Below, in pieces: positions 2,688 through 37,268 of a stretch of DNA of 64,000 nucleotides; position 1 is the first letter of the stretch; each line of letters opens with the position of its first letter. The notes under the pieces are model-generated. The model was not told the DNA's origin, did not search any database, and saw only the letters and a list, made by a program, of their open reading frames with translations. The DNA lies in contig CAMNNQ010000195.1 in assembly GCA_946545645.1 (NCBI GenBank), forward strand, positions 1-64,000. Direction: 5' to 3'. Source of the stretch: an uncultured Clostridia bacterium (lineage in GTDB: Bacteria > Bacillota > Clostridia > Oscillospirales > Ruminococcaceae). The translations under genes and the position numbers were made by a program.

Positions 2688-2717
2688 ATATTAGAGGCTC
2701 CGGCAGCTCAAAAGGTT
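2688..2717 (-). promoter_or_regulatory. ECF-like promoter motif, copy a
   Basis: The minus strand reads AACCTTTT, 14 bp, TCTAATAT. The same two blocks with identical 14-bp spacing occur at 5465-5494 and 5541-5570. The AAC in the -35 block is typical of ECF promoters. It points at the sigma operon, so the sigma factor probably drives its own gene (inference). Confidence 0.6.
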
Positions 2718-2791
2718 AACGGGTAAAATGATTATTTTATTCAAAACAGCAGCCTGCACTTTTCGCACAGACTGCTGAAATGTAGTTGTAA

Positions 2792-3637
2792 TTAATCCTT
2801 AAGTCTTTTAACTATATCATACCTCGCATCATTTTCTCCTTTGGTGAGCTTATGTTTTCCTGAAGCAAAGCTTGAAAAATCCAATTCGTTGATGTAGCTT
2901 TCAATATCTTTGATAGGCTGTGGTGTCGGCAGCTCGTGTATGAGGCTTTTATCCTTGGGCAATTTCTCAAGGCTTTCCCCTCCTAGTTCTTCTGTATCCA
3001 GCACCACAATACTATAACGTTCTTCGTCAAGTCCTTTGGAATCGGTCATCATAACCGTTCCACAGCCTAATTCAGCGGAATCAGATAATTGCTTTTGTTC
3101 GAAAGTATATGCTTTGGGATTCTTTCCGTTCCAGTAGAAATATCTGGTAGTTGATGCATTATGCCAAGGACCTCTATATATTACTTCTGTGCCACTTCTG
3201 CCTTCAAGCCCTGAAATGAGGAGACAAGCGGTAGCGTTTTCAATTTCATCGCTTTTCCAGAAAATAAACAGATCAGGCAAGCCGTTTTCTTCAACGTCGA
3301 CTGCGACGGCAGAAAAGGCTTTGTTTTCTAATTCATCACTGTGATGTGACTTAATATCCTTGAAGCACTCAAGATAGTGTTGTTTCCAGTACTGCGCTTC
3401 TGAATCGTCAGTGCTTTGTGTAGTCTCACTTGGCTGTGTTTGTTCAGATGTTGTTGTCTCTGTCGGCTGGGCAGTTGTCGTCGTAGTCGTTTCGGTCCTT
3501 GCGTCCAAACCGCTAATTGTTTGTGCGGGTACCGCTTTTGATTCGGAAACTGTCGTGCTTGAGCTGTCCCCGCAACCCGTAAAGCAGGCTGCTGCCATTG
3601 TGAGTGAAAGTACGATAGCCAAAATTCTTTTTTTCAT
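2792..3637 (-). CDS. Secreted lipoprotein with Thr-rich linker
   Basis: The 281-residue protein starts MKKRILAIVLSLTMAAACFTGC, a lipoprotein signal peptide with the modified Cys at about 22, then a Thr/Ser/Glu-rich spacer to about residue 80. The rest is a ~200-residue globular domain with acidic patches (VAVDVEENGLPDLFIFW resembles the IDGDGLSEIDV stretch of the neighbouring sigma fusion). AAGGAGAG precedes the ATG. It is a paralogue of the next gene through its first 30 residues only. It is likely displayed on the outer face of the membrane. Function is not recognised. Confidence 0.8.
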   Translation of the reverse strand: MKKRILAIVLSLTMAAACFTGCGDSSSTTVSESKAVPAQTISGLDARTETTTTTTAQPTETTTSEQTQPSETTQSTDDSEAQYWKQHYLECFKDIKSHHSDELENKAFSAVAVDVEENGLPDLFIFWKSDEIENATACLLISGLEGRSGTEVIYRGPWHNASTTRYFYWNGKNPKAYTFEQKQLSDSAELGCGTVMMTDSKGLDEERYSIVVLDTEELGGESLEKLPKDKSLIHELPTPQPIKDIESYINELDFSSFASGKHKLTKGENDARYDIVKRLKD

Positions 3638-3671
3638 GATTATCTCTCCTTGTTTTAATAATATTATGCCT

Positions 3672-4655
3672 TTATTTTACTGCGATTGGTTTGAGCGTTT
3701 TCGGGTCAAGCGTTATCTCTCCCGAATATAGCTCCTTTTTTTCAATTTCGTCAGCTATCTTCAGTTCAAATATCTCGTTGCCATTTGCATCTTTTTTATC
3801 TGTCGGTGTCAGGTCGAACACAACACTTTCTTTGCCTGTGCATACCGTTCCGTCATTGAGCTTGAAGCCTACATACCATTCCTTATCGGCATTATAGAGA
3901 TTATCGTAGCTCGTTACGGTGATGTTGTTTTCGTCGGGCACTACTGCTGCCCAGCTTCCTCTGCTCTGTGAGGTGTGTTCTTCGGTAAAGCTTGAAAATA
4001 CAAGCATTTTGCCGCCGTCAAGCTTGAAGGCCTTTGTTCCTTTATCGCCTGCGCCCCTTAAACCTGCCGAAACGTAATACTGATAAGCATAATACTCACC
4101 GAGCATAGTGCTTGTTTCCGTACCGTTTTCGACATTGGAAATAAACTCGGGGTCATCGACCGTATGCCAGTTCTTGCCGTCCTCGGTCACTGCAAGAAGA
4201 TACCTATAAGGAGTAGATGTGTATGTTGACCCGTCCCACAAAAGCATATATGCTCTGCCGTCATCGCAGATATTGACAAATTGCTCGTGGTTCTTTATGT
4301 ACAGCTCATCTGTCTGATATTTTCCGCTGACTTCGTATTTCCATTCTCCGTCTGCCTTTTTATAGGTGCGGGCTTTGTCATACTCAATAGTACCCCTGGA
4401 CTTTATGATGCTTTCAAGATCACTTGGGTTTTCTTCGGGTGATTGCGTCGTAGTTTCAGGCTCAGGCTGTGTTTCCGAAGCGGTCTTAGTCTCGGGAAGT
4501 GTAGTTGTTTGCATTGTCGTCGTCTGCGTCGTCGATTTCTTGGATTTATCCTTTTCTTTTTCCTTGAACGGCGTGCTTGAGCTATCCCCGCAGCTCGTAA
4601 AGCAGGCTGCTGCCATTGTGAGTAAAAGTATGATAGCTAAAATTCTTTTTTTCAT
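3672..4655 (-). CDS. Secreted lipoprotein, paralogous signal region
   Basis: I start at ATG 4655 (MKKRILAI) because GGAGGA lies 7 bases upstream; the track start adds MEEFV, which contains that ribosome binding site. The signal peptide MKKRILAIILLLTMAAACFTSC is almost identical to the downstream lipoprotein, followed by a Lys-rich then Thr/Gln-rich linker to about residue 80. The C-terminal ~245 residues form a Trp/Tyr-rich beta-type domain without a motif I recognise. The gap to the downstream gene is about 34 bp, so the two are probably co-transcribed. The near-identical signal regions suggest duplication or recombination of the export segment. Confidence 0.8.
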   Translation of the reverse strand: MKKRILAIILLLTMAAACFTSCGDSSSTPFKEKEKDKSKKSTTQTTTMQTTTLPETKTASETQPEPETTTQSPEENPSDLESIIKSRGTIEYDKARTYKKADGEWKYEVSGKYQTDELYIKNHEQFVNICDDGRAYMLLWDGSTYTSTPYRYLLAVTEDGKNWHTVDDPEFISNVENGTETSTMLGEYYAYQYYVSAGLRGAGDKGTKAFKLDGGKMLVFSSFTEEHTSQSRGSWAAVVPDENNITVTSYDNLYNADKEWYVGFKLNDGTVCTGKESVVFDLTPTDKKDANGNEIFELKIADEIEKKELYSGEITLDPKTLKPIAVK

Positions 4656-4760
4656 AACAAATTCCTCCATCTAATTGTTAATGATTGTAGCATATATATG
4701 TATATATATATAAGGCAAAGCGTGAATGAAATGTAAATACGCTCGATTTTATGCCTAATA

Positions 4761-5417
4761 CTACTGTATCGAGTCTCGTGAAACGTAGCCGACAAATTTA
4801 CCTGCTGCGCTGAAAACGGGTATTTTCGGTACATCTACCGGCATAAACAGATCAAGTATTTTCAGGAATATCGACAGAAGAATAACAGCGCCTACGATCA
4901 TCAGTACAAGGTAAACCACATTCATCAACAGCACTAACATTGTTGATGCAGCAAGAAACAGGACACTTTTATGATGTTCTTCCTCGATTTTGTAAAGTAT
5001 GATCGCCGCAATTTCAGCACAAGCAATCACAATTCCTGGTATCATAACGTTCAGTGCAGGGAAAACCGCCTGTGTCTTGTACTTGACTATTGTAACGATG
5101 ACCGCACAGACTATCTGCACTGTTCTGACTGCGAGCATACCTATCTTAAGTCCTTTTCCGTCAGCGTTGATAAAGAACGATATCGTATTGAAAATGAATG
5201 CTGCGCCAAGCACGCCAAATGCGATGGTGTAAAGCGTTGTTTCACGAAAATCCGCATCGAGCGGATACATTAACAGGTCGCTCAAAAAGTTGTCTGTGCC
5301 CCGCTCTTTCAGCTCCTGCGCCTTTATGACCATAAGCTGAACAAGATTGCCGACTGAAATGAGCCCTGCGATGACCGCACCAACGATTGAAATGATACTT
5401 ATTGATCTGTGTTTCAT
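4761..5417 (-). CDS. Integral membrane protein, putative sigma regulon member
   Basis: This 218-residue protein has five or so hydrophobic segments: near the N-terminus (ISIISIVGAVIAGLISVGNL), about 60-85, 95-112, 122-142 and a long one at about 150-190. A short tail ends GKFVGYVSRDSIQ. I do not recognise a family. Two tandem copies of the ECF-like promoter motif lie 50-155 bp upstream, the strongest sign in the window that it is controlled by the sigma fusion at 839-2398. Start ATG 5417 follows a GGAGGAA ribosome binding site. Confidence 0.7.
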   Translation of the reverse strand: MKHRSISIISIVGAVIAGLISVGNLVQLMVIKAQELKERGTDNFLSDLLMYPLDADFRETTLYTIAFGVLGAAFIFNTISFFINADGKGLKIGMLAVRTVQIVCAVIVTIVKYKTQAVFPALNVMIPGIVIACAEIAAIILYKIEEEHHKSVLFLAASTMLVLLMNVVYLVLMIVGAVILLSIFLKILDLFMPVDVPKIPVFSAAGKFVGYVSRDSIQ

Positions 5418-5464
5418 AATTCTTCCTCCATTATTGTTTATTCTGAGATTTTTCTGTTCTCTGA

Positions 5465-5494
5465 CTATTAGAGGGTGCAGGTCTGAAAAAGGTT
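5465..5494 (-). promoter_or_regulatory. ECF-like promoter motif, copy b
   Basis: The minus strand reads AACCTTTT (5494-5487), 14 bp, TCTAATAG (5472-5465). It is the proximal of two tandem copies before the membrane protein gene at 4761-5417. Confidence 0.6.
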
Positions 5495-5540
5495 AAAAGA
5501 AATCTGAAAACTTTTTTAGTCCCTGCTATGCTCTCTCTGT

Positions 5541-5570
5541 ATATTAGAGGGAGAGTATCTTGAAAAGGTT
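5541..5570 (-). promoter_or_regulatory. ECF-like promoter motif, copy c
   Basis: The minus strand reads AACCTTTT (5570-5563), 14 bp, TCTAATAT (5548-5541). It matches copy a exactly in both blocks and in spacing, and is distal to copy b. Confidence 0.6.
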
Positions 5571-6314
5571 AAAGTGTTTTTCAGATTTTTTTCAATAGTT
5601 TATGTCAAAAACCCGCAAACAAGCAAATAGATTGTCGCAATTGCGAGGAAATTACATATGCTGACTGTTTGCTTGTTTACAGAATAATTGTGCAGTACAA
5701 TGGATTTTAATTGTGTCACAAAACTATACACTTTTAATTTCACGACCTATAGTATATACACGACCTTATGATCGCGAAAGTGTCATTCATAGGCTCAGCA
5801 ACAGTTCTGTGCGAACTGCTCTATCGCAAGTAAGGCGGACAATACTATCCGAGCCGAGTTACCCGTGACCTTGTTTGGCACACCGAGGAACTGAAAACGC
5901 TCGGAGTCAACTTTACCTCGACTCTCAACCACGGAACCGCATCATCAAACTTTAATATGACATCTCGGGTGACGTTAAGTCAAAAGCTCTGCTATATAGC
6001 AAGGTTGAGAACATTAGTGGCACCCAAAATCCCGCAAAGGCTTTACCTACGGTGATTGAGCAAAACACCGGGAAGCAAACGGGTGACGGCAACTGCCCGA
6101 ATGGGTGACGGTAGGGTGCCGGTAACTCCCGCGCTGTGAGCCGAAATTTGCCAGCCCTCTACCTCGGAAGACAAACTACCCGACCTCGCTGCACAAACTG
6201 CCGCACAGGGCACCGTGGCGCAATTGTGAGCGTAAGTGCTGGGGTGTATCTCCAATTTCGCCGAACACGCCGAACAAAGTGGTTAAAGGGTAGTATAGCA
6301 ATATATGCAAAAAT
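5571..6314. other. Intergenic region with no convincing gene
   Basis: No frame here is both long and supported by a ribosome binding site. Short coding-like stretches on the plus strand around 5770-6000 and 6050-6250 are broken by stops and frameshifts, consistent with an old degraded gene, but I cannot name it. The left end is AT-rich. Confidence 0.5.
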
Positions 6315-6383: not shown

Positions 6384-6695
6384 ATGGCTTTTACAAACGT
6401 AAACGAGGAAGTAATGCTCTCTGCGGACGATCTGGAAGCGGTATGCGGAGGAGTAAGTGTTAATCTCGAAGTAAAAAGGAAAATCGATTTCACTATAAGA
6501 TACGCACTCAAGAGCGGAGCTGATCCTAAGAATATTAAGAGTATACTGAGTGAAAAGATCCTTGACCGTTACGGGGAGACATTTCTTTCCGATCATTCCA
6601 GTACTATGAATATCCTTCTGGCAGAAGGTATCAGGGATTATGAGGAAAGCCTAATGGCAGGCGGGATATTCCAGATATACAGAGAATCGATCTGA
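6384..6695 (+). CDS. Double-glycine leader peptide, second type
   Basis: The 103-residue product has a short leader ending in LSADDLEAVCGG (about residues 12-23), again a double-glycine signal. The ~80-residue remainder is highly charged and helical, not a typical small bacteriocin core. The ribosome binding site is weak (AAAGGAC about 16 bases upstream), so the start is uncertain. A strong terminator follows at 6768. No exporter or modification gene is adjacent. It may be an orphan substrate of a C39-peptidase transporter elsewhere. The leader is seen directly; the role is inference. Confidence 0.6.
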   Translation: MAFTNVNEEVMLSADDLEAVCGGVSVNLEVKRKIDFTIRYALKSGADPKNIKSILSEKILDRYGETFLSDHSSTMNILLAEGIRDYEESLMAGGIFQIYRESI

Positions 6696-9107: not shown

Positions 9108-9619
9108 ATGCTTTTCTTTGCCCAATCAGCGATCTTGCTCTCGCTCTCAGCGGCCTCTGCGCCGTGAACAGAAAGCCCTGCCTTGACTGTCGCACCCTTG
9201 CAGAGAGCTTTCAGGTCACGTTCGCTTGAACCCAGACCGCTGCCCTCGTTGGTGCAGAACGGGATTATCGTCTTGCCTGACAGATCATACTTTTCAAGAA
9301 GCGTGAACATACACATCGGCATAGTGCCCCACCAGTTTGGGTAGCCGACAAAGATCGTATCATAGTCCTCGAAATTGTCGGGATAAGCCTTGATCTCCGG
9401 ATGAGCCTTCGCACGAAGCTCAGCCTTTGTTTCTTCAATGCAGGTCATGTAGCTCTCGGAATAGGGCTTTACGGTGTCCACCTCAAAGAAATCACCGCCA
9501 ACAGCATCATGAATGAACTCAGCAACTCGCTCGGTGTTGCCCTTTGCAATTGTTTTCAAGCCCCCGTTTCAGTAGTTTTCACCCTTGCGGGAATAGTAAA
9601 CGATAAGAATATTAGCCAT
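9104..9619 (-). pseudogene. Flavodoxin gene interrupted by an in-frame TGA
   Basis: The ORF track starts at an internal TTG (9559). Reading upstream in the same frame gives MANILIVYYSRKGENY, then TGA, then NGGLKTIAKGNTERV, ending at ATG 9619, which follows GGAGATAATCACT. The FMN-phosphate loop region is therefore split off by one stop at codon 17, where related proteins usually carry a sense codon. The rest (YPNWWGTMPMC, FCTNEGSGLGSS) is intact flavodoxin. Either a recent nonsense mutation, a sequencing error, or expression from the internal TTG without the full FMN site. Confidence 0.7.
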
Positions 9620-9896: not shown

Positions 9897-12800
9897 TTAT
9901 TTTCGCTCACTGCGCCTTTTTCTTTGAACTGCGATGATGCCGATGATAGCAGCTATCATCACGATCGAGAGCATTCCGCCTTCGGTACCCGTTATCGGGT
10001 TGACGGCAGTATCGCCTGCGTATTCAGGTGCTGACTTCGTATCGGAAGCTGACACCGTATCGTCGGCAGGTCTTTCAGGCTCTGACTCGCTGTTCTGATT
10101 CTCAATCTCAGGAACTACGGTATCATCTGTCTTTGCCCACTTCGCATAAACGGGAGTGTCCGCCGTGATCGGTTCATCGAAGTCAAATGCTGCGGTAAAG
10201 TCTTTATCCTTGTACCAGCCCTCAAATGTGAAGCCGTCTTTTGTCGGGTTTTCGGGCTTTGTAGCCTTTTTGCCTTCTTCAACTGTCTGTTCAGCCACAG
10301 CAGAACCGCCGTCAGTGTCAAATGTAACTGTGTAAACATTGCCGTCAACGACTGTCAGGTGAAGCGGAAGCCCGTCAGACCATACACCGTCTAAGTTCGA
10401 GCGTATGCGGAAGAAGTATGTTCCCGCTTCGAGATATATCGGGCCTGTGTAAAGAATATGCTCAGGATCGTCCTTCGGGCATATGCCGTTGGTGGTGTAG
10501 TAGATAACTGCACCCGGGGTTGAAGTGGTAAGTGTCAGATAGCCCTTTGAAACTGTGTCATTATCTTTGACTGTCTTGCCGTTCATAGTGGCTTCTACCT
10601 TTGCAGGGACTGTGGTGTCAGCCGTAACGGTATAGGTTACTGTCAGGGTATCACTTGGTTTCATGCCCGTTCTGAATGCCTTTGCCTTGATAGTCATATC
10701 CTCGTTAATGAAGATAGCCGAGCTGTAAACGGTGCTGTTTTCATCAGGCTCACTGCCGTCTGTTGTGTATCTTATAACAGCACCCTTTGTCTGTGTGGAA
10801 AGTATCACGCCTGTGTTCTTCTCAACTTCGCCTTCTTCTACATCTGCTGTGGGCTTCTTCACCTGCTCGGGCTTTGTAACCGTAAGCTCACCGCTGTCAT
10901 ATCGCTCGTCCATCTGAACCCCTGCGTAGCTTTCTACAAGGTTTTCAACTGCAAGCTGTATCTTGTCGCCCTCTGCTGAATTCTTATAGGTCAGAAGCAG
11001 ATTGCTTGTGTAGCTTGGTGCTTTTTCATCTGCACTGCTCTTTTCGCTGTCTATTTTTGTAATGATAAAGTCCACAGGCCTGCCGTTTACAAGAAGCGTA
11101 AAGTTTGCGTTTTTAAGCGTGCTTTCATTCATGTATTTGTCAAATATCACCTCAACGCCCAAAGTGGTTGCCTTAACGTTCTTTATCTTCGGTGCTTCAT
11201 AGCTTACAAGAGGGATATTCACATCAAGCTGAACGGGCAGAACGGGCATATAGTAAAAGCCGTCTGTGCTGTTCTTGACAGCGTCAAGTCCGAAATCCTT
11301 GCTACTGCCTGTGTCTGCGTCTTCATAGCCCTCGGCTGTTACCTTTACTCTCCACCAACCTTCGGGTACGAACCACTGATAGCGTCCGTCCTCGCCTGTG
11401 ATCTGTGGATTAGGCTCTATGCCGAATTCATTTGAGTCTGCAACGATAACTGTTCCTCCCGAAAGCCCTGTTGCCACGTCGTATTCGTTTCTTGTAACAT
11501 CAACGCTTCCGTACAGGGTGTACAAAGTAACTTCAGCGCCCTCAACACGGTTGCTCGGAACTGCCTCGTAAACATAACCTGAGGGATCATATCTTCCCTT
11601 TGGTCCGGAGGGAGCACTTACCTTGCTGTAGTTTACTGGTGTCATCATCTTATTGTGATAGCGGTCGAGCAGCCTGCTCTCACGCTCACGGTCATCATAG
11701 CTGTCCCATGCATTGGGATCGTATATTTTCTTTGGCCAGTTCTTCCAGTTGATTCCTTCGGAGCATAGCCCGCCGTTGTTGATATTGCGCTCGTATTTCT
11801 CGGCATATCTTGCCGCAAGATAGAGCCGCCTTCCCAGGTTCTTTGACTTGCGTCCCCATGCGTATTCACGAACGTCCTGCTTGAACTTATCCTCGGTGTA
11901 TTTTCCCGGATCAAGGTTTTCAACTACCTTGTCCCATGCAGCCTTGATACCCTTCTCTGAAAAATCCTTTCCAAATTCGGTAGCTGTGTCAAGTGCGTTT
12001 TTGACCTCCTGCGTCATGCGCTCACCGAACATCTGGCGTATTTCCGGCACGATATCAAACGGACCCGGATCGCCGTTTGAAGAATACATCTTATAAAGCA
12101 TCTGCAAGCAGTAGTTGTCTTTAAGGAACCTGTGGAGCTGCTCGATCTCCTCACTGGTAACGTCGATCTCCTGCATCCACTCAGCCATGTCGTCGCCTGT
12201 TTCTTTGGCTTCCTTTAGCTTATCAGCGGCATCTTTTATAGCATCCCAATCCCATTTTTTCTCGGGTGTCTTGAACTTTAAGCCCTTAGCGCCCGCTTTA
12301 AGGCTTCCTGAAGCGTATGCCATTATACTTGCGATAACGCTCACATTATCAGATTTTACGGTTGCCTTGTCTGTAATGGTTTCACCGTTCTTTTCAGCTG
12401 TTGCTGCCTGAGTTACAGCATTTGCATACTGGCTGTAGAAGGCCGTCCAGATATCATATATCTGCTGTGCATAGCCTGCTGATACTGCTAAGTTTTTCTG
12501 TTCGTCGGTTATGGTAACATTGTTTGCTATTCTTTCGTCAAGTTCCTTGTCGGAGGAAGGATTGTGAAGAACATTTCCGCCGATATCAATAACAGTTATG
12601 TACTTCTTATTTTGTGAAAGATCCCATGTGAGCTTAACAGTGCGTGTCGCAGTCATTATTGTCTGCTTGAATACTGTACCGAAGCTTTCATCATACCTCT
12701 TGATGGTCATTACTCCGAACAGATCTTCATCACCCTCAAAGCCGTCCTGATAGGCTGCATTGAACCAGCCCTCCTGATAAAGAACAACATTTGGTGCAAG

Positions 12801-15800
12801 ATCGCCTGTTTGATCACCGTAGTTGAATGCAGGCGTTTCAAACAGCATAAGGTCATCTGCCTCGTCCTGATCCCAGTTTAATGTATTCTGTGTTATTGAA
12901 ACAGGTATCTTTGCAGTTTTTCCTTTAAGGTCAAAGAACAGGTCCTCATCCACAACTGTCAGGTCAGATATAAGGTCTGTGCTTTCAAGCCTGTCATAGA
13001 CTCTTTTCAGCTGTGCTTCGGTATAGCTTGATTCCTCTGCCTTTGAAATGTGGTCTGGTCTTGTCTTTACAGAATATGACACATAAGCCCCGTCCGGTGC
13101 AGAGCCCGGAATATAAGTCAGAGGTGTGAGCCATGTGCCGTCCTCTTGTTTGACGGCATCAATTATCATCAAATATCCGTTTCTCGGTATGTTGACAGCT
13201 GCCGCAGCTATCTGTCCGGGGTTGTCAAATGTCATTTTCCACTGAACGCCCGCCTTTTCATTGCTGCCTGCGCTTCTGTACCAGCTCAGGTCACGGCTTA
13301 CGGGATCACCGTCGTCCCAGATGACCATGCTATTCATCCATCCCTTTTCGGCATCGCCCTTGTGGTTCTCCCAGAAAAGCTCGTACTTGTTCAGCACACC
13401 GTCACCGGGTGTGTAGAGCACCGGTACGGTATCAGATGTTCTTGCAAAACTGCCGTCGTCATACATGCCTGCTGCGGTGAATTCCATAGAGTCATATTCC
13501 CCGAACACTGATGTGTCTACGCTCACCTTTGCCTTGTACTGACCTCTGTAGTCTGTTGTGGTTTTGCCGACAGGTGCGCCGTTGCAGTAGATAACAACAT
13601 TGTAATCCTGCTGCTTATCCTGTGCATATCCCTGGAATCCCTTGGTTGACGGCATAGCCTGCCCGTAAACGGTGAATGTGCCGTCTGTTGTGTCAAGGGG
13701 CGCTTCAAGGCTTATAACTGCAAGGTCCTGCTCAAATGAGCCTATCAGGTCGGTGTGCAGCTGCCTGTTTTCATCATACTGCAAGAAAGCATAGCAGCTC
13801 ATGCTCTCAAATTCGGTCTGGCTGATAACAGTCGAAACAGTCATAGGGAAGCCGCCTAAAGCCTCAAGCTGTTCCTTGCTGAATGTAAGAGTTATGCTGC
13901 CGTCCTGCTGTATGATGCCGTTGGTGCCGCCCCAGCGGTCTATCTGAATGGGTGTTCCGTTGACCGAAAGAGCATAGGTGTTTACATATCCCATACCCTG
14001 AGCAGTCTGCGGCTGGTTGGTCATAAGTTTAAGTGTTACGCCGTCGTCAGGCTTGAAGCCCTCAGTCGGGATAACGTCAGCATCTACGGTGATAAAACCG
14101 CCCCATGTCTTTGACATAGTTACCTTTGAGATATCCCGATCTACCTTGCCCTGCCCTTTGAACGCTGAGGCCTCGGTACTCAGGGTAATGGTGCCGCTCT
14201 TATAGTTGTTTTCGTCGGTGACATCTATGGTGGTATAGCCGCTGTGTTTTAGCGCCATGCCCTCTGCTGCGGTGTCGTAATCTCCGGGCAGCAGTGTGCT
14301 GAAATACTCTCTGTTCACAGCCACGAATGTGTATTTATCCGGCAGCAGTCCGCCTGCCCAGCTGCTCTGGTCGCCTGCTCTGCTGTTGAAATAGTCATTC
14401 CTGTTAATTATAAGCTCGCCCTTGCCGTTGTAGACAAGCAGCTGCAAAGCCCCGTTCATAGGTCTGCGAAGGTTAAGATATACCGTCCTGCGGTGAACAA
14501 AGTCAAGCCCGCCCTTGGCATAAAGCTTGCCCTCGCTGTCCTTCCGGACTGTGACTGTGGCGGTGCCGTCGTATTCGGGGCCGCAGGCTTCCGGCCAGCC
14601 CTCGGCGTAAACGGTCAGCCTGTCGCCTTCCTTTATCTGATCGGTGTCTAAGACCGTGACAGCGCTTTCTGTGATCTTAGCCGCCAGTTCAGTGCCGTCT
14701 GCCTTGGTGACCTTTACCTTACGGAAATCAATTATTCGTCCCCGTCTGTTATTCCCGTCAGGCTCTGCAACGGTCACATCGAGATAGATACGCCCTTCAC
14801 GAAGCGGAACATTAAAGTCCTTGGAAAGGCTTCCTGCTGCTATGTCCTCGGCGGTCACGGTATAGCTGACACTCTGGTGATAGTCGCCGTAAACGCTCAC
14901 AGTGATAACAGTGCCCTCGGTTATACCGTCAACAGAATACTGCGCCCCTGACCGGAATGTCTTTGACTCAATTACCATAGCACTGTTTTCACCCGGTCTG
15001 GATATATCTATCCGGTAATACCAGAAATCATCACCATAGCTTCCGCCCGACAGATCCTCTGCCTTGACAAAGCCTGTCATAGTCATGCTGGGCCTTTTTA
15101 CAAAGGGTACGCTTATTTCTCTTTCACTGTCAAGTGTTACCTTGATAAGCTCGCTTTCGACATACTGTACGGCATAGCTGTCCTTGGGTACTGCACGGAG
15201 ATATACCGCTTCATCGTCAAGTACTGTATAGTTGTCAGCCTCGCTGAGAAGCTGCTTGCCGTCAGCGTCGGAATACCATTCATAGCTCTTGCCCCACCAG
15301 GAAACGCCATTTCCGTCAGCTGTCGCTTTTGCATATACCCTCTTTGCCCTGTGATCGGTGAGCTTCAGGATAACAGGGTTATCAATGCCGCTCTGGAGCG
15401 TTATTTCCTCTGAGCCAAACGTCATATTGCCGTAATCAGACACATATGCCACAGCCTCAAGGGTATACCTGCCAGAGGCGATGTTACTAAGTGTGACAGG
15501 TGCTGAAGTATCGTCTATGTAGGACTGATATACAATGTATCCGTCTGTGTTCTTAACATACAGATAAGGTCTTGCACCAGAGGTGATCTCCCCTTCAAAG
15601 GAAATGGTCATAGTCGGGGCAACGTCAAGGTTTATATCCTCGCTGTAAATCTTTTCATTGTTCAGTAACAGGTCAAAGCTGTCAACACTCTTGGCATCAG
15701 CGGGAATCGTGCTTCTGTAATAGGCATAGTTGCTGTAGGTGTAGACAGTCATTTTAAAATCTACAGTTTTTGAAGCGCCTTTTTTGTCTGTATAGCGCAT

Positions 15801-17279
15801 AACGCCCGAAGCTGTTTCGTCAGCTTCAAAGCTGCGATTAGTATACAGGAACACGCTGTATTCGCCCTGATCACGCAAAAGGATATCTCCCACATACGAA
15901 AGCACTATCTGTGGGGCATTGTTCCCGTCAAGCGCGATTGGCTTGTTTGCAATGTTGATAATAAATGTCTTGCTTGCGCTTTCACCGTCTGCCTCCGAAG
16001 CGGTAACAGTTGCGCTGTACCTGCCCACGGTTGACGGTGTACCCGATATAACGCCTGTTTCGGCATTTATAGAAAGACCGTAAGGCAGACCTGTGGCATC
16101 CCATGTGAGAGCCTTTCCTGCAACATAAGGCGTTGCCTCTGCTTTAGCGGAGTATTTCTCGTCCACTGTGCCGTCAGCAAGCTGCTGCGTGGTGATAACC
16201 GGCGGGTCTGTAGCTATCGTGACAGTAAACTGCTTGTCAGCCACCCCGCCGTCAGCTTCGGCAGCACGTACAGTAAAGCTGTAGCTGCCCTTAGCTGAGG
16301 GTGTGCCCGAAATACTGCCATTACTGCTGAGTGTAAGGCCTGCGGGCAGCTCGCCCTTTGCAATGCTCCAGGTAACAGCTTTGCCCGAGACTGCAGGTGT
16401 TGCCGTTAAAGAAGCAGAATAATCCACAGCAACCTTGCCGGAAGGCAGTGAGCTTGTAGTTATCTTGGGCGGGTCAAGATCCTTGACACTTATAGTGAAG
16501 AACTTGCTTGCAGAATTGCCGCCCTTTTCGGTAGCAGTTGCCTTGAATGAATAATTGCCAACTGTCGTTGCTTTGCCCGTAATAGCACCTGTTGTGCTGT
16601 TAATGCTAAGTCCGTCGGGAAGTCCGGGAGCGTCCCAGGTTATAGCTCCGCCATAGACAGCATCCGCTTCAAGCTTGGCCGAATATGCCGCACCCTTCTT
16701 GGCTTCGGGGAGAGCATCCGTAGTTATTGTGGGAGGCTGCTTAAGATCACCTGCATCGACAACATGAACAATGCCGTCAGTGCTGTAATATTCGTCTGTA
16801 TAGGCTTCTGTATAGAAAGTCTCCCTGCTCGTGACCACTTTCAGCCTGTAATCTCCTACTGCGACACTGGGTATTGCGATATTCTGGATCCAGATATCCA
16901 AGCCGTACTCGGTCTTGCCGGTGTCAGGGTTGTCATAGGAAAACACTTCAGGCTTGCCGTCACCGCCGTAGGCCAGCAGGTCGTACTTCTGGGCCTTAGT
17001 ATCGGCATCGACCAGATAGATGCCCTTGATAGTATCATTTCCCGAAATGGAAACGAATGCGGATACAGACAGATCCACTCCGCCTGATGGATCTCTGGTC
17101 AGATATCCGTCATTAGTTCCGTAGCCGTAGTCCTCCATACGGTTGTTGTCATACCAGTTGGCTTCGAGCCATTCCTGACTGCCTGCTGAAACTGTCAATA
17201 AAGATATGGGCATCAAGCTCATGAGCATAAGCATTGCCAGCATCAGCGACAGAGACCTTTTCCCGAAACTCAGTTTCAT
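9897..17279 (-). CDS. Giant multidomain surface protein with NPITG sorting signal
   Basis: I start at ATG 17279 (MKLSFGKRS), with GGAGGG 8 bases upstream. The ~2460-residue product has a signal peptide (1-33), three putative Ig-type repeats (about 185-450; patterns like GLPDGLSINSTTGAITG), a long unassigned middle, a carboxypeptidase-regulatory-like fold (ITGEDGRYQWFVPEGWWRV), an SbsA/Big_5-like segment (VEVIFDKYMNESTLKNANF), two chitobiase C-terminal-like repeats (IRYTTDGSEPDENS; IYYTTNGICP), an InlB-type repeat (VTFDTDGGSA...FEGWYKDKDF) and an acidic spacer. The C-terminus NPITGTEGG, hydrophobic stretch and RKRRSERK form a sortase signal of the (N/S)PxTG class. A cell-wall adhesin or carbohydrate-binding scaffold is likely. 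Confidence 0.85.
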   Translation of the reverse strand: MKLSFGKRSLSLMLAMLMLMSLMPISLLTVSAGSQEWLEANWYDNNRMEDYGYGTNDGYLTRDPSGGVDLSVSAFVSISGNDTIKGIYLVDADTKAQKYDLLAYGGDGKPEVFSYDNPDTGKTEYGLDIWIQNIAIPSVAVGDYRLKVVTSRETFYTEAYTDEYYSTDGIVHVVDAGDLKQPPTITTDALPEAKKGAAYSAKLEADAVYGGAITWDAPGLPDGLSINSTTGAITGKATTVGNYSFKATATEKGGNSASKFFTISVKDLDPPKITTSSLPSGKVAVDYSASLTATPAVSGKAVTWSIAKGELPAGLTLSSNGSISGTPSAKGSYSFTVRAAEADGGVADKQFTVTIATDPPVITTQQLADGTVDEKYSAKAEATPYVAGKALTWDATGLPYGLSINAETGVISGTPSTVGRYSATVTASEADGESASKTFIINIANKPIALDGNNAPQIVLSYVGDILLRDQGEYSVFLYTNRSFEADETASGVMRYTDKKGASKTVDFKMTVYTYSNYAYYRSTIPADAKSVDSFDLLLNNEKIYSEDINLDVAPTMTISFEGEITSGARPYLYVKNTDGYIVYQSYIDDTSAPVTLSNIASGRYTLEAVAYVSDYGNMTFGSEEITLQSGIDNPVILKLTDHRAKRVYAKATADGNGVSWWGKSYEWYSDADGKQLLSEADNYTVLDDEAVYLRAVPKDSYAVQYVESELIKVTLDSEREISVPFVKRPSMTMTGFVKAEDLSGGSYGDDFWYYRIDISRPGENSAMVIESKTFRSGAQYSVDGITEGTVITVSVYGDYHQSVSYTVTAEDIAAGSLSKDFNVPLREGRIYLDVTVAEPDGNNRRGRIIDFRKVKVTKADGTELAAKITESAVTVLDTDQIKEGDRLTVYAEGWPEACGPEYDGTATVTVRKDSEGKLYAKGGLDFVHRRTVYLNLRRPMNGALQLLVYNGKGELIINRNDYFNSRAGDQSSWAGGLLPDKYTFVAVNREYFSTLLPGDYDTAAEGMALKHSGYTTIDVTDENNYKSGTITLSTEASAFKGQGKVDRDISKVTMSKTWGGFITVDADVIPTEGFKPDDGVTLKLMTNQPQTAQGMGYVNTYALSVNGTPIQIDRWGGTNGIIQQDGSITLTFSKEQLEALGGFPMTVSTVISQTEFESMSCYAFLQYDENRQLHTDLIGSFEQDLAVISLEAPLDTTDGTFTVYGQAMPSTKGFQGYAQDKQQDYNVVIYCNGAPVGKTTTDYRGQYKAKVSVDTSVFGEYDSMEFTAAGMYDDGSFARTSDTVPVLYTPGDGVLNKYELFWENHKGDAEKGWMNSMVIWDDGDPVSRDLSWYRSAGSNEKAGVQWKMTFDNPGQIAAAAVNIPRNGYLMIIDAVKQEDGTWLTPLTYIPGSAPDGAYVSYSVKTRPDHISKAEESSYTEAQLKRVYDRLESTDLISDLTVVDEDLFFDLKGKTAKIPVSITQNTLNWDQDEADDLMLFETPAFNYGDQTGDLAPNVVLYQEGWFNAAYQDGFEGDEDLFGVMTIKRYDESFGTVFKQTIMTATRTVKLTWDLSQNKKYITVIDIGGNVLHNPSSDKELDERIANNVTITDEQKNLAVSAGYAQQIYDIWTAFYSQYANAVTQAATAEKNGETITDKATVKSDNVSVIASIMAYASGSLKAGAKGLKFKTPEKKWDWDAIKDAADKLKEAKETGDDMAEWMQEIDVTSEEIEQLHRFLKDNYCLQMLYKMYSSNGDPGPFDIVPEIRQMFGERMTQEVKNALDTATEFGKDFSEKGIKAAWDKVVENLDPGKYTEDKFKQDVREYAWGRKSKNLGRRLYLAARYAEKYERNINNGGLCSEGINWKNWPKKIYDPNAWDSYDDRERESRLLDRYHNKMMTPVNYSKVSAPSGPKGRYDPSGYVYEAVPSNRVEGAEVTLYTLYGSVDVTRNEYDVATGLSGGTVIVADSNEFGIEPNPQITGEDGRYQWFVPEGWWRVKVTAEGYEDADTGSSKDFGLDAVKNSTDGFYYMPVLPVQLDVNIPLVSYEAPKIKNVKATTLGVEVIFDKYMNESTLKNANFTLLVNGRPVDFIITKIDSEKSSADEKAPSYTSNLLLTYKNSAEGDKIQLAVENLVESYAGVQMDERYDSGELTVTKPEQVKKPTADVEEGEVEKNTGVILSTQTKGAVIRYTTDGSEPDENSTVYSSAIFINEDMTIKAKAFRTGMKPSDTLTVTYTVTADTTVPAKVEATMNGKTVKDNDTVSKGYLTLTTSTPGAVIYYTTNGICPKDDPEHILYTGPIYLEAGTYFFRIRSNLDGVWSDGLPLHLTVVDGNVYTVTFDTDGGSAVAEQTVEEGKKATKPENPTKDGFTFEGWYKDKDFTAAFDFDEPITADTPVYAKWAKTDDTVVPEIENQNSESEPERPADDTVSASDTKSAPEYAGDTAVNPITGTEGGMLSIVMIAAIIGIIAVQRKRRSERK

Positions 17280-17333
17280 ACTACATCCCTCCATTTATGT
17301 TGAAATAGCAAATATATACAATAAGCCAATTTA

Positions 17334-36320: not shown

Positions 36321-37268
36321 ATGCTTTTAATAATGTGCAGACCATTATATCGTATTTTGTCGCAAAATGAATTATTTGGCAATAAAAATTTACCAAAAAT
36401 TTCAAAAAAGGCGAGGGCCTTTGATGAAGTTTGTACTAAGCATAATATAAAGTATTTTGTCTATGGTGGAACACTTCTCGGAGCGATCAGGCACGAAGGG
36501 TTTATCCCTTGGGACGATGATGAGGATGTTGCTTTGCTCAGGAAAGATTACAACAAGCTGAGATCTCTTGCGGAGAATGGGGAGTTGTTTCATCATCCTT
36601 ATTTTTTTCAAGGGCTATTGCAGACTGAGAAACAGCGACACTACAGAGATTCCATATGTTGATGTATATGAGAAATGCAATCATGGTATATTTATAGATA
36701 TTTTTCCGCTAGATGTTCTTCCAAACAGCCCGAAGGAGATAGACAGATAAAAAGACTTAAAATTGTTAGAACAGCTATGAATTCATACTCAAGATGGTAT
36801 TCCGGAGTTGGCCCACTGGGAATCTCTAAGGCAAAAAGAATCGCGTATTATCTTAGCGTTCCTTTGTTTAAGTTACATTTGGTCAATATGAAGAAGCTAT
36901 ACTCACTGTATGAAAAGGTTGCGACCCGATACTCAAAGAGTAATTGCAGCAAAAAAGGAAGTGTTGCTGGTACAATGGGTATCAAAAGGTTTGTGTATGA
37001 CAGAAAAGACTGGAACACAAAGGTGAAATTAAATCGTTTTGAAAATCTGCAGGTTCCGATACCAATCACATATTATAAAATACTGACTCATACATACGGA
37101 GATTATATGGTTCCTGTGCATGAATCATCGAATCATGGGACAACGCTGTTTTCTGCCACTGTACCATATGAAGAGTTCATAAAGGATAATAAACGAATGC
37201 TTATGAAAGAACGGTATAAGCTTACCAGCAGTGGCAAAAAAGAATTAAGTGAAGGATTATACAGATGA
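36321..37268 (+). pseudogene. LicD-family phosphotransferase pseudogene
   Basis: Three frames together give one LicD protein close to the intact gene at 59244: [26 protein letters not shown], then after a shift near 36610 [24 protein letters not shown], then after a second shift near 36750 QIKRLKIVRTAMNSYSRW to the end. The LicD nucleotidyltransferase-like Asp triad region (WDDDEDV) is intact but the frame is not. LicD proteins transfer phosphocholine or similar phospho-alcohols to glycans. Confidence 0.8.

Follow-up and report, generated by a model that had tools for sequence, protein, structure and literature searches.

The question raised by this locus is which promoters are read by an ECF sigma factor that carries its own membrane anchor, and how such a protein might be controlled. 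The stretch of DNA analyzed (the window) comprised 64,000 nucleotides from an uncultured Clostridia bacterium. In the first-pass annotation, the motif AACCTTTT-N14-TCTAATA had been reported three times on the minus strand, once ahead of the sigma operon and twice, as a tandem pair, ahead of a membrane protein gene, and had been taken as the recognition sequence of the fused sigma factor and the mark of a local regulon. On comparative sequence evidence, the three sites are very probably promoters of the adjacent membrane-anchored ECF sigma, for which a mechanism is proposed below.

The motif was found in the 64-kb window in three exact copies, all on the minus strand and with the reported N14 spacing, at 2689-2717, 5466-5494, and 5542-5570. 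The base after TCTAATA was T, G, and T, respectively. The placement reported earlier was also borne out, since all three sites are intergenic and oriented toward genes: the 2689 site precedes the sigma operon, consisting of a small ORF (2395-2502) and the sigma gene (839-2398), and the 5466 and 5542 sites lie in tandem, 49 and 125 bp ahead of the membrane protein gene at 4761-5417. Allowing one to three mismatches gave no further match in the window. Further copies of AACCTTTT at 36920, 36991, 38188, and 53154 were rejected, being without a -10 block; the first three of them overlap listed ORFs. The genome scan that had been proposed as a check was run on 3,297,767 bases in 203 contigs (96.5% complete). 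It returned the window's three exact copies only and none at one mismatch, where simple arithmetic for 15 fixed bases at equal base frequencies gives a chance expectation of about 0.006 in the whole genome. With three mismatches allowed, 83 matches were obtained vs 198 for the reversed control pattern, which is background; therefore, only near-perfect sites are informative, and the relaxed whole-genome scan was rejected as a source of more regulon members.

The conserved element is larger than the one first reported. It reads TTAACCTTTT-N12-CCTCTAA, continues with T-A-(T/G) and CAGA or CAAA, and is preceded by an A/T tract; ACAGA is conserved downstream of the -10, at the position expected for the start site. 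Judged by its sequence, the element TTAACCTTTT-N12-CCTCTAA is an ECF-type promoter. An AAC-type -35 is typical of ECF promoters, as here, and the -10 of the best-known Bacillus ECFs is CGTC, while here it is (C)TCTAA. Promoter 1 (2689-2719, minus) has its -35 TTAACCTTTT at 2710-2719, a 12-nt spacer, and its -10 CCTCTAATA at 2689-2697; its start is predicted at about 2683-2687, and it would drive the small ORF and the sigma gene. Promoter 2, the proximal one of the tandem pair (5466-5496, minus), has the -35 TTAACCTTTT at 5487-5496, the -10 CCTCTAATA at 5466-5474, and a predicted start at about 5460-5464. The corresponding positions of promoter 3, the distal one (5542-5572, minus), are 5563-5572, 5542-5550, and about 5536-5540. 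Directly upstream of promoter 3 lies an A/T-rich tract resembling an UP element (5573-5600, minus), and a similar tract lies upstream of promoter 2 (5497-5524, minus); at promoter 1 the tract is weaker than at the other two. The A+T fraction of the upstream tracts at the sites of this sigma clade (clade 1) was 0.68-0.93, and the runs of A and of T in them were phased.

The tandem pair precedes a target operon of three genes on the minus strand: a multi-pass membrane protein of 218 aa (4761-5417), which had no family match in Pfam/NCBIfam-type profile scans, and two lipoproteins (3672-4670 and 2792-3637). A homology of the last lipoprotein (2792-3637) to the sigma ectodomain was considered and rejected, as it was not significant. 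Two features between the operons had been overlooked in the first-pass annotation. An intrinsic terminator with a 13-bp stem and a T tail (2747-2777, minus) splits the target operon and the sigma operon into two transcription units. Moreover, a sigma-A-like promoter, TTGAAT-N17-TATAAT (2543-2571, minus; 10/12 and TG-extended), lies downstream of ECF promoter 1 and ahead of the small ORF and likely gives basal sigma expression. A comparable TTG...TATAAT was seen by eye near the sigma genes of the relatives G281, G160, and G307 and at other loci. With an ECF site and a sigma-A-like site ahead of the same operon, the sigma is therefore probably served by a basal and an autoregulated promoter. Elsewhere in the window, two short plus-strand ORFs (181-393 and 6384-6695) have N termini resembling double-glycine leaders (ALESVAGG and DLEAVCGG) and possibly encode secreted peptides, and a 2465-aa predicted secreted repeat protein (9897-17294, minus) ends in a hydrophobic segment, possibly a membrane anchor.

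The sigma protein (839-2398, minus) has 519 aa. It is composed of sigma2 (24-91), sigma4 (141-192), a GIVLCAVPF motif (about 205-213), and an Ala/Gly/Ser linker, followed by one transmembrane helix (about 259-281; predicted from hydropathy, 1556-1624, minus), a Ser/Thr-rich stalk, and a C-terminal ectodomain with a DIDGDG motif. The protein was assigned to the ECF (group IV) sigma factors by matches to Sigma70_r2 (1.9e-11), Sigma70_r4_2 (1.3e-9), and TIGR02937 (3.9e-26), and its ECF part also matched PDB ECFs. A C-terminal transmembrane extension, seen as a single strong hydrophobic segment after sigma4, was present in 5/5 fused sigmas checked. No zinc-finger anti-sigma (ZAS) domain was matched in the window sigma at E up to 0.1 or in three homologues at E up to 0.5. 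Among relatives, the ECF part and a GVVLCAVPF-like motif after sigma4 are conserved and the ectodomains are swapped, which had escaped the earlier reading. The relatives' ectodomains have one or two DIDGDG-type domains, and that of a paralogue on contig C57 of the same genome has BspA-type leucine-rich repeats. A profile of the ectodomain gave no significant match against PDB.

Another feature that had been passed over is the small ORF itself, which encodes 35 aa (MTFDEFLIAVFLYMAQQGLLDDMIEKYRNDEEQEK; 2395-2502, minus) and whose stop overlaps the sigma start (ATGA). Of the 38 fused-sigma loci checked, about 20 have an acidic ORF of 35-51 aa that overlaps or abuts the start of the sigma gene: the window, L033, L073, L075, L077, L079, L083, L085, L086, L088, L091, L097-L101, L151, and L154-L156. 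The small proteins of close relatives have xxM...GMLDDL..KY in common, and those of distant ones LDEfI..iL...(l)teeq. Three examples scanned had no Pfam/NCBIfam match, apart from one weak NCBIfam hit far below the cut-off, and a profile of the small proteins gave no significant match against PDB. The C57 paralogue has no evident partner of this kind. From its position and size, the small coupled protein probably helps to regulate the sigma, perhaps as an anti-sigma or a stabilizing partner.

The conservation of the element was studied in relatives of the sigma. A search of 398 family genomes gave three closest homologues with 49-60% identity (G281, G160, and G307), all with TTAACCTTTT-N12-MCTCTAA-type sites upstream of the sigma on the same strand; in G281, a tandem pair stands ahead of a membrane protein gene, which is followed by a small ORF and the sigma. 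Four more clade members (G400, G430, G519, and G417:C129) were found after the pattern had been fixed, in the genera of G281 and G307. Within 1.5 kb upstream of the sigma, the site of G400 matched 17/17 positions and those of G430 and G519 matched 15/17. At G417:C129 there was none within 1.5 kb, and the extended locus has three tandem copies, which precede a membrane protein, a lipoprotein, a small ORF, and the sigma; the window has its gene types in this order as well. The element thus stands ahead of the sigma gene or its operon in 8/8 members of the clade (support 100/98), the eight loci amounting to about six independent lineages because G160/G400 and G307/G430 are near pairs. Tandem copies also occur in G281, G417, and G519; in G519 (L167, 9982-10343), four near-identical tandem promoters in steps of about 112 bp precede one membrane protein gene. 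Among 394 genomes drawn from the order, no more close sigma relatives were found beyond the window's own genome.

The fixed pattern AACCTTTT-N12-MCTCTAA was present in 10/398 family genomes, namely 4/4 with the sigma vs 6/394 without it (Fisher p = 2.0e-7); the pattern was written after the four sigma loci had been seen, and therefore this test mainly shows its rarity elsewhere. The reversed control gave 7 matches in all across the 398 genomes. The six sigma-less genomes were rejected as regulon carriers: no sigma gene was noticed in them, and 5/6 of their stray sites overlap ORFs of more than 100 codons. With the 8/8 clade loci, the tracking in 398 genomes, and the shift in the sister clade described below, the earlier claim that the fused sigma recognizes this motif is supported by comparison.

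The element has its own form in each group of sigmas. In the sister clade (clade 2: G403, G415, and G417:C99), the variant is AAAACCTTTT-N12-..ATCTAA, also written AAAACCTTT...ATCTAA, and the C57 paralogue (39% identity) has the local motif TTGAACCTTT-N15-TCTAAC. The base ahead of AACC is T in 17/17 clade-1 sites, A in 7/7 clade-2 sites, and G in 3/3 C57 sites; directly ahead of the -10 TCTAA, clade-1 sites have C and clade-2 sites have A. Both clades are represented in G417 by one locus, and each locus there has the motif form of its clade. Such co-variation with the sigma clade is expected if each sigma reads its own sites, and it is unexpected for one shared regulator.

Several further observations were made at these and other loci. 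The C57 paralogue (L065, 5517-7631, minus) is a further ECF sigma of the fused kind, and its ectodomain is a BspA-type LRR domain; genes for a lipoprotein and for a zinc-ribbon membrane protein lie downstream of its local promoters at 9231+, 12682+, and 12850+, and a one-mismatch site lies ahead of a flavodoxin-like gene (3828, minus). In the sister clade, C57, and RUG393, the non-sigma target promoters have an extra conserved block (GTTCATAAA / TGTTTACAAA) upstream of the -35, at L163 10083 and 10197, L164 6433, L165 7053, L065 9231 and 12682, and L162 1218. These promoters often have TGTAAG near the start, and the block is absent from clade-1 sites. It is possibly the site of a second regulator. 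Upstream of more distant fused sigmas (L097, L080, and L085), TATAACC-N17/18-TCTAA or ACTAA occurs, with CG before and ACAGAA after it, in tandem in L097. These ECF-like elements suggest that the arrangement holds across a wider family.

Other explanations of the sites were compared with recognition by the adjacent sigma. That they arose by coincidence in low-complexity, A/T-rich intergenic DNA would fit the background-level counts of the relaxed patterns, and yet the spacing makes it barely credible: exact AACCTTT-N15-TCTAA occurs 25 times at 13 sigma loci (118 kb), with 22 of the copies lying outside the window, whereas none of the 19 other spacers from 6 to 25 gave a single copy at the same loci; the expectation from first-order Markov sequences is 0.05. 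The exact site was present in 12/13 of the loci, the thirteenth (RUG393/G408) having one with a single mismatch, and the element recurred in genomes found later. The element might instead be bound by some other DNA-binding regulator that accompanies the locus, its likeness to an ECF promoter being incidental; this would account for conservation that reaches into the upstream A/T tract and the downstream CAGA block. However, two blocks at a fixed distance from each other, an AACC -35 like that of ECF promoters, and a start-site motif at the right distance speak for a promoter, an ECF sigma is adjacent in every case, and a non-systematic look noticed no other DNA-binding gene in common among the loci, so that we regard this explanation as very improbable.

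Somewhat less improbable, though still unlikely, is that the sites are real ECF promoters whose main reader is a different ECF of the genome, for example the C57 paralogue, in a sigma cascade. This genome encodes about 30 proteins that have a region 4 of the ECF type, which would allow cross-recognition, the C57 motif is similar, and some ECFs have been reported as expressed from the promoters of other ECFs (PMC3817407). However, the presence of the motif tracks this sigma clade across genomes, and the bases ahead of AACC and TCTAA shift with the clade, both kinds occurring in G417. Recognition by the adjacent fused sigma is accordingly the reading that we carry forward.

The local regulon proposed earlier was also borne out for near-perfect sites in the four genomes scanned. 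With the longer pattern (13 Mb in all), no site within one mismatch was found away from the sigma loci: G000, G281, and G160 had no other such site, and G307 had none better than its sigma site, which itself has two mismatches to the longer pattern; other matches at the two-mismatch level were also returned. Judged on these near-perfect sites, the regulon appears local in the four genomes, and weaker sites would escape the scan. The targets are multi-pass membrane proteins and lipoproteins, mostly non-homologous between loci, and no homology was detected among the target membrane proteins at E 1e-3. By this comparison, it is the promoter and the envelope destination that are conserved across loci, and not the target gene.

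The sites, their rarity, their co-conservation with the sigma, the variant motif of each clade, and the operon layout were computed, and a mechanism can be proposed in which direct recognition, autoregulation, the signal, the mode of release, and the part played by the small protein are what we infer. The two cytoplasmic domains of the sigma would read the -10 (CCTCTAA) and the -35 (TTAACCTTTT), and the single transmembrane helix would tether them at the membrane, beneath the extracellular sensor domain. A weak housekeeping promoter would maintain the sigma at a basal level. A signal may be sensed by the ectodomain, perhaps together with the neighboring envelope proteins, and the sigma thereby activated. 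Proteolytic release, which has been proposed for other ECFs fused to the membrane, is the most likely route; C-terminal sensing and release of the window sigma are suggested by this analogy. The active sigma would then fire its own promoter, giving a positive feedback loop, as well as the two tandem promoters that serve the membrane protein gene and the two lipoprotein genes behind it, and the small coupled protein would probably act as its co-regulator. More tentatively, and less likely than not, the locus may represent a clostridial family of one-protein transmembrane sigma switches, each with its own anchor and an interchangeable ectodomain, in which the small, translationally coupled protein replaces the normal anti-sigma and a private promoter sequence serves a strictly local group of envelope genes, in several orthogonal copies per genome.

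These results provide a concrete promoter for membrane-fused sigmas of gut and rumen Clostridia, which seem to be barely described. Parallel copies with distinct promoter variants are useful for regulon prediction and as orthogonal gene switches, and the small conserved protein, outside Pfam/NCBIfam in the scans run, is a candidate regulator of fused sigmas. Autoregulated ECFs are known; the clostridial membrane-fused form with a small partner appears to be new, and no description of that form was found in the literature searched, which excluded the 2021 ECF group classification, where it may already have a group number.

It is established practice to look for ECF promoters in sequence conserved ahead of the gene of the sigma itself, and in this way 29 subgroup promoter motifs of autoregulated ECFs were obtained (Rhodius et al. 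2013, PMC3817407). Like those ECFs, the window sigma has sigma2 and sigma4, a conserved promoter before its own operon, an A/T-rich UP region, and clade-specific promoters. Unlike them, it has its own membrane anchor and ectodomain and a CCTCTAA -10, and no recognizable anti-sigma gene was found beside it. Membrane-fused ECFs described to date include ECF48/52/53 of Actinobacteria and IutY of Pseudomonas putida, whose activation is known or proposed to be triggered by proteolysis (PMC8999054). ECF52/SCO4117 of Streptomyces coelicolor and ECF48/ECF53, for which activation by proteolysis was proposed, are ECFs likewise extended at the C terminus by a membrane-spanning part and an extracytoplasmic domain (PMC8999054). 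The window sigma differs from them in having no ZAS match, in being clostridial, in the small ORF ahead of it, and in the DIDGDG-type or BspA-type LRR ectodomains of its family. ECF243/IutY shares the C-terminal fusion to a membrane-spanning part; it is an iron cell-surface signaling protein of a Gram-negative bacterium, released by regulated proteolysis (PMC8999054), whereas no iron cell-surface signaling receptor gene was seen at the window locus. Furthermore, the SigI/RsgI systems of Clostridium thermocellum resemble the present case in that parallel sigma systems with their own extracellular sensors exist in one Clostridia genome (PMC4711584, PMC10766802). There, the sensor is on a separate anti-sigma protein, whereas here it is on the sigma itself. 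In addition, SigI is not of the ECF kind, while the window sigma is an ECF.
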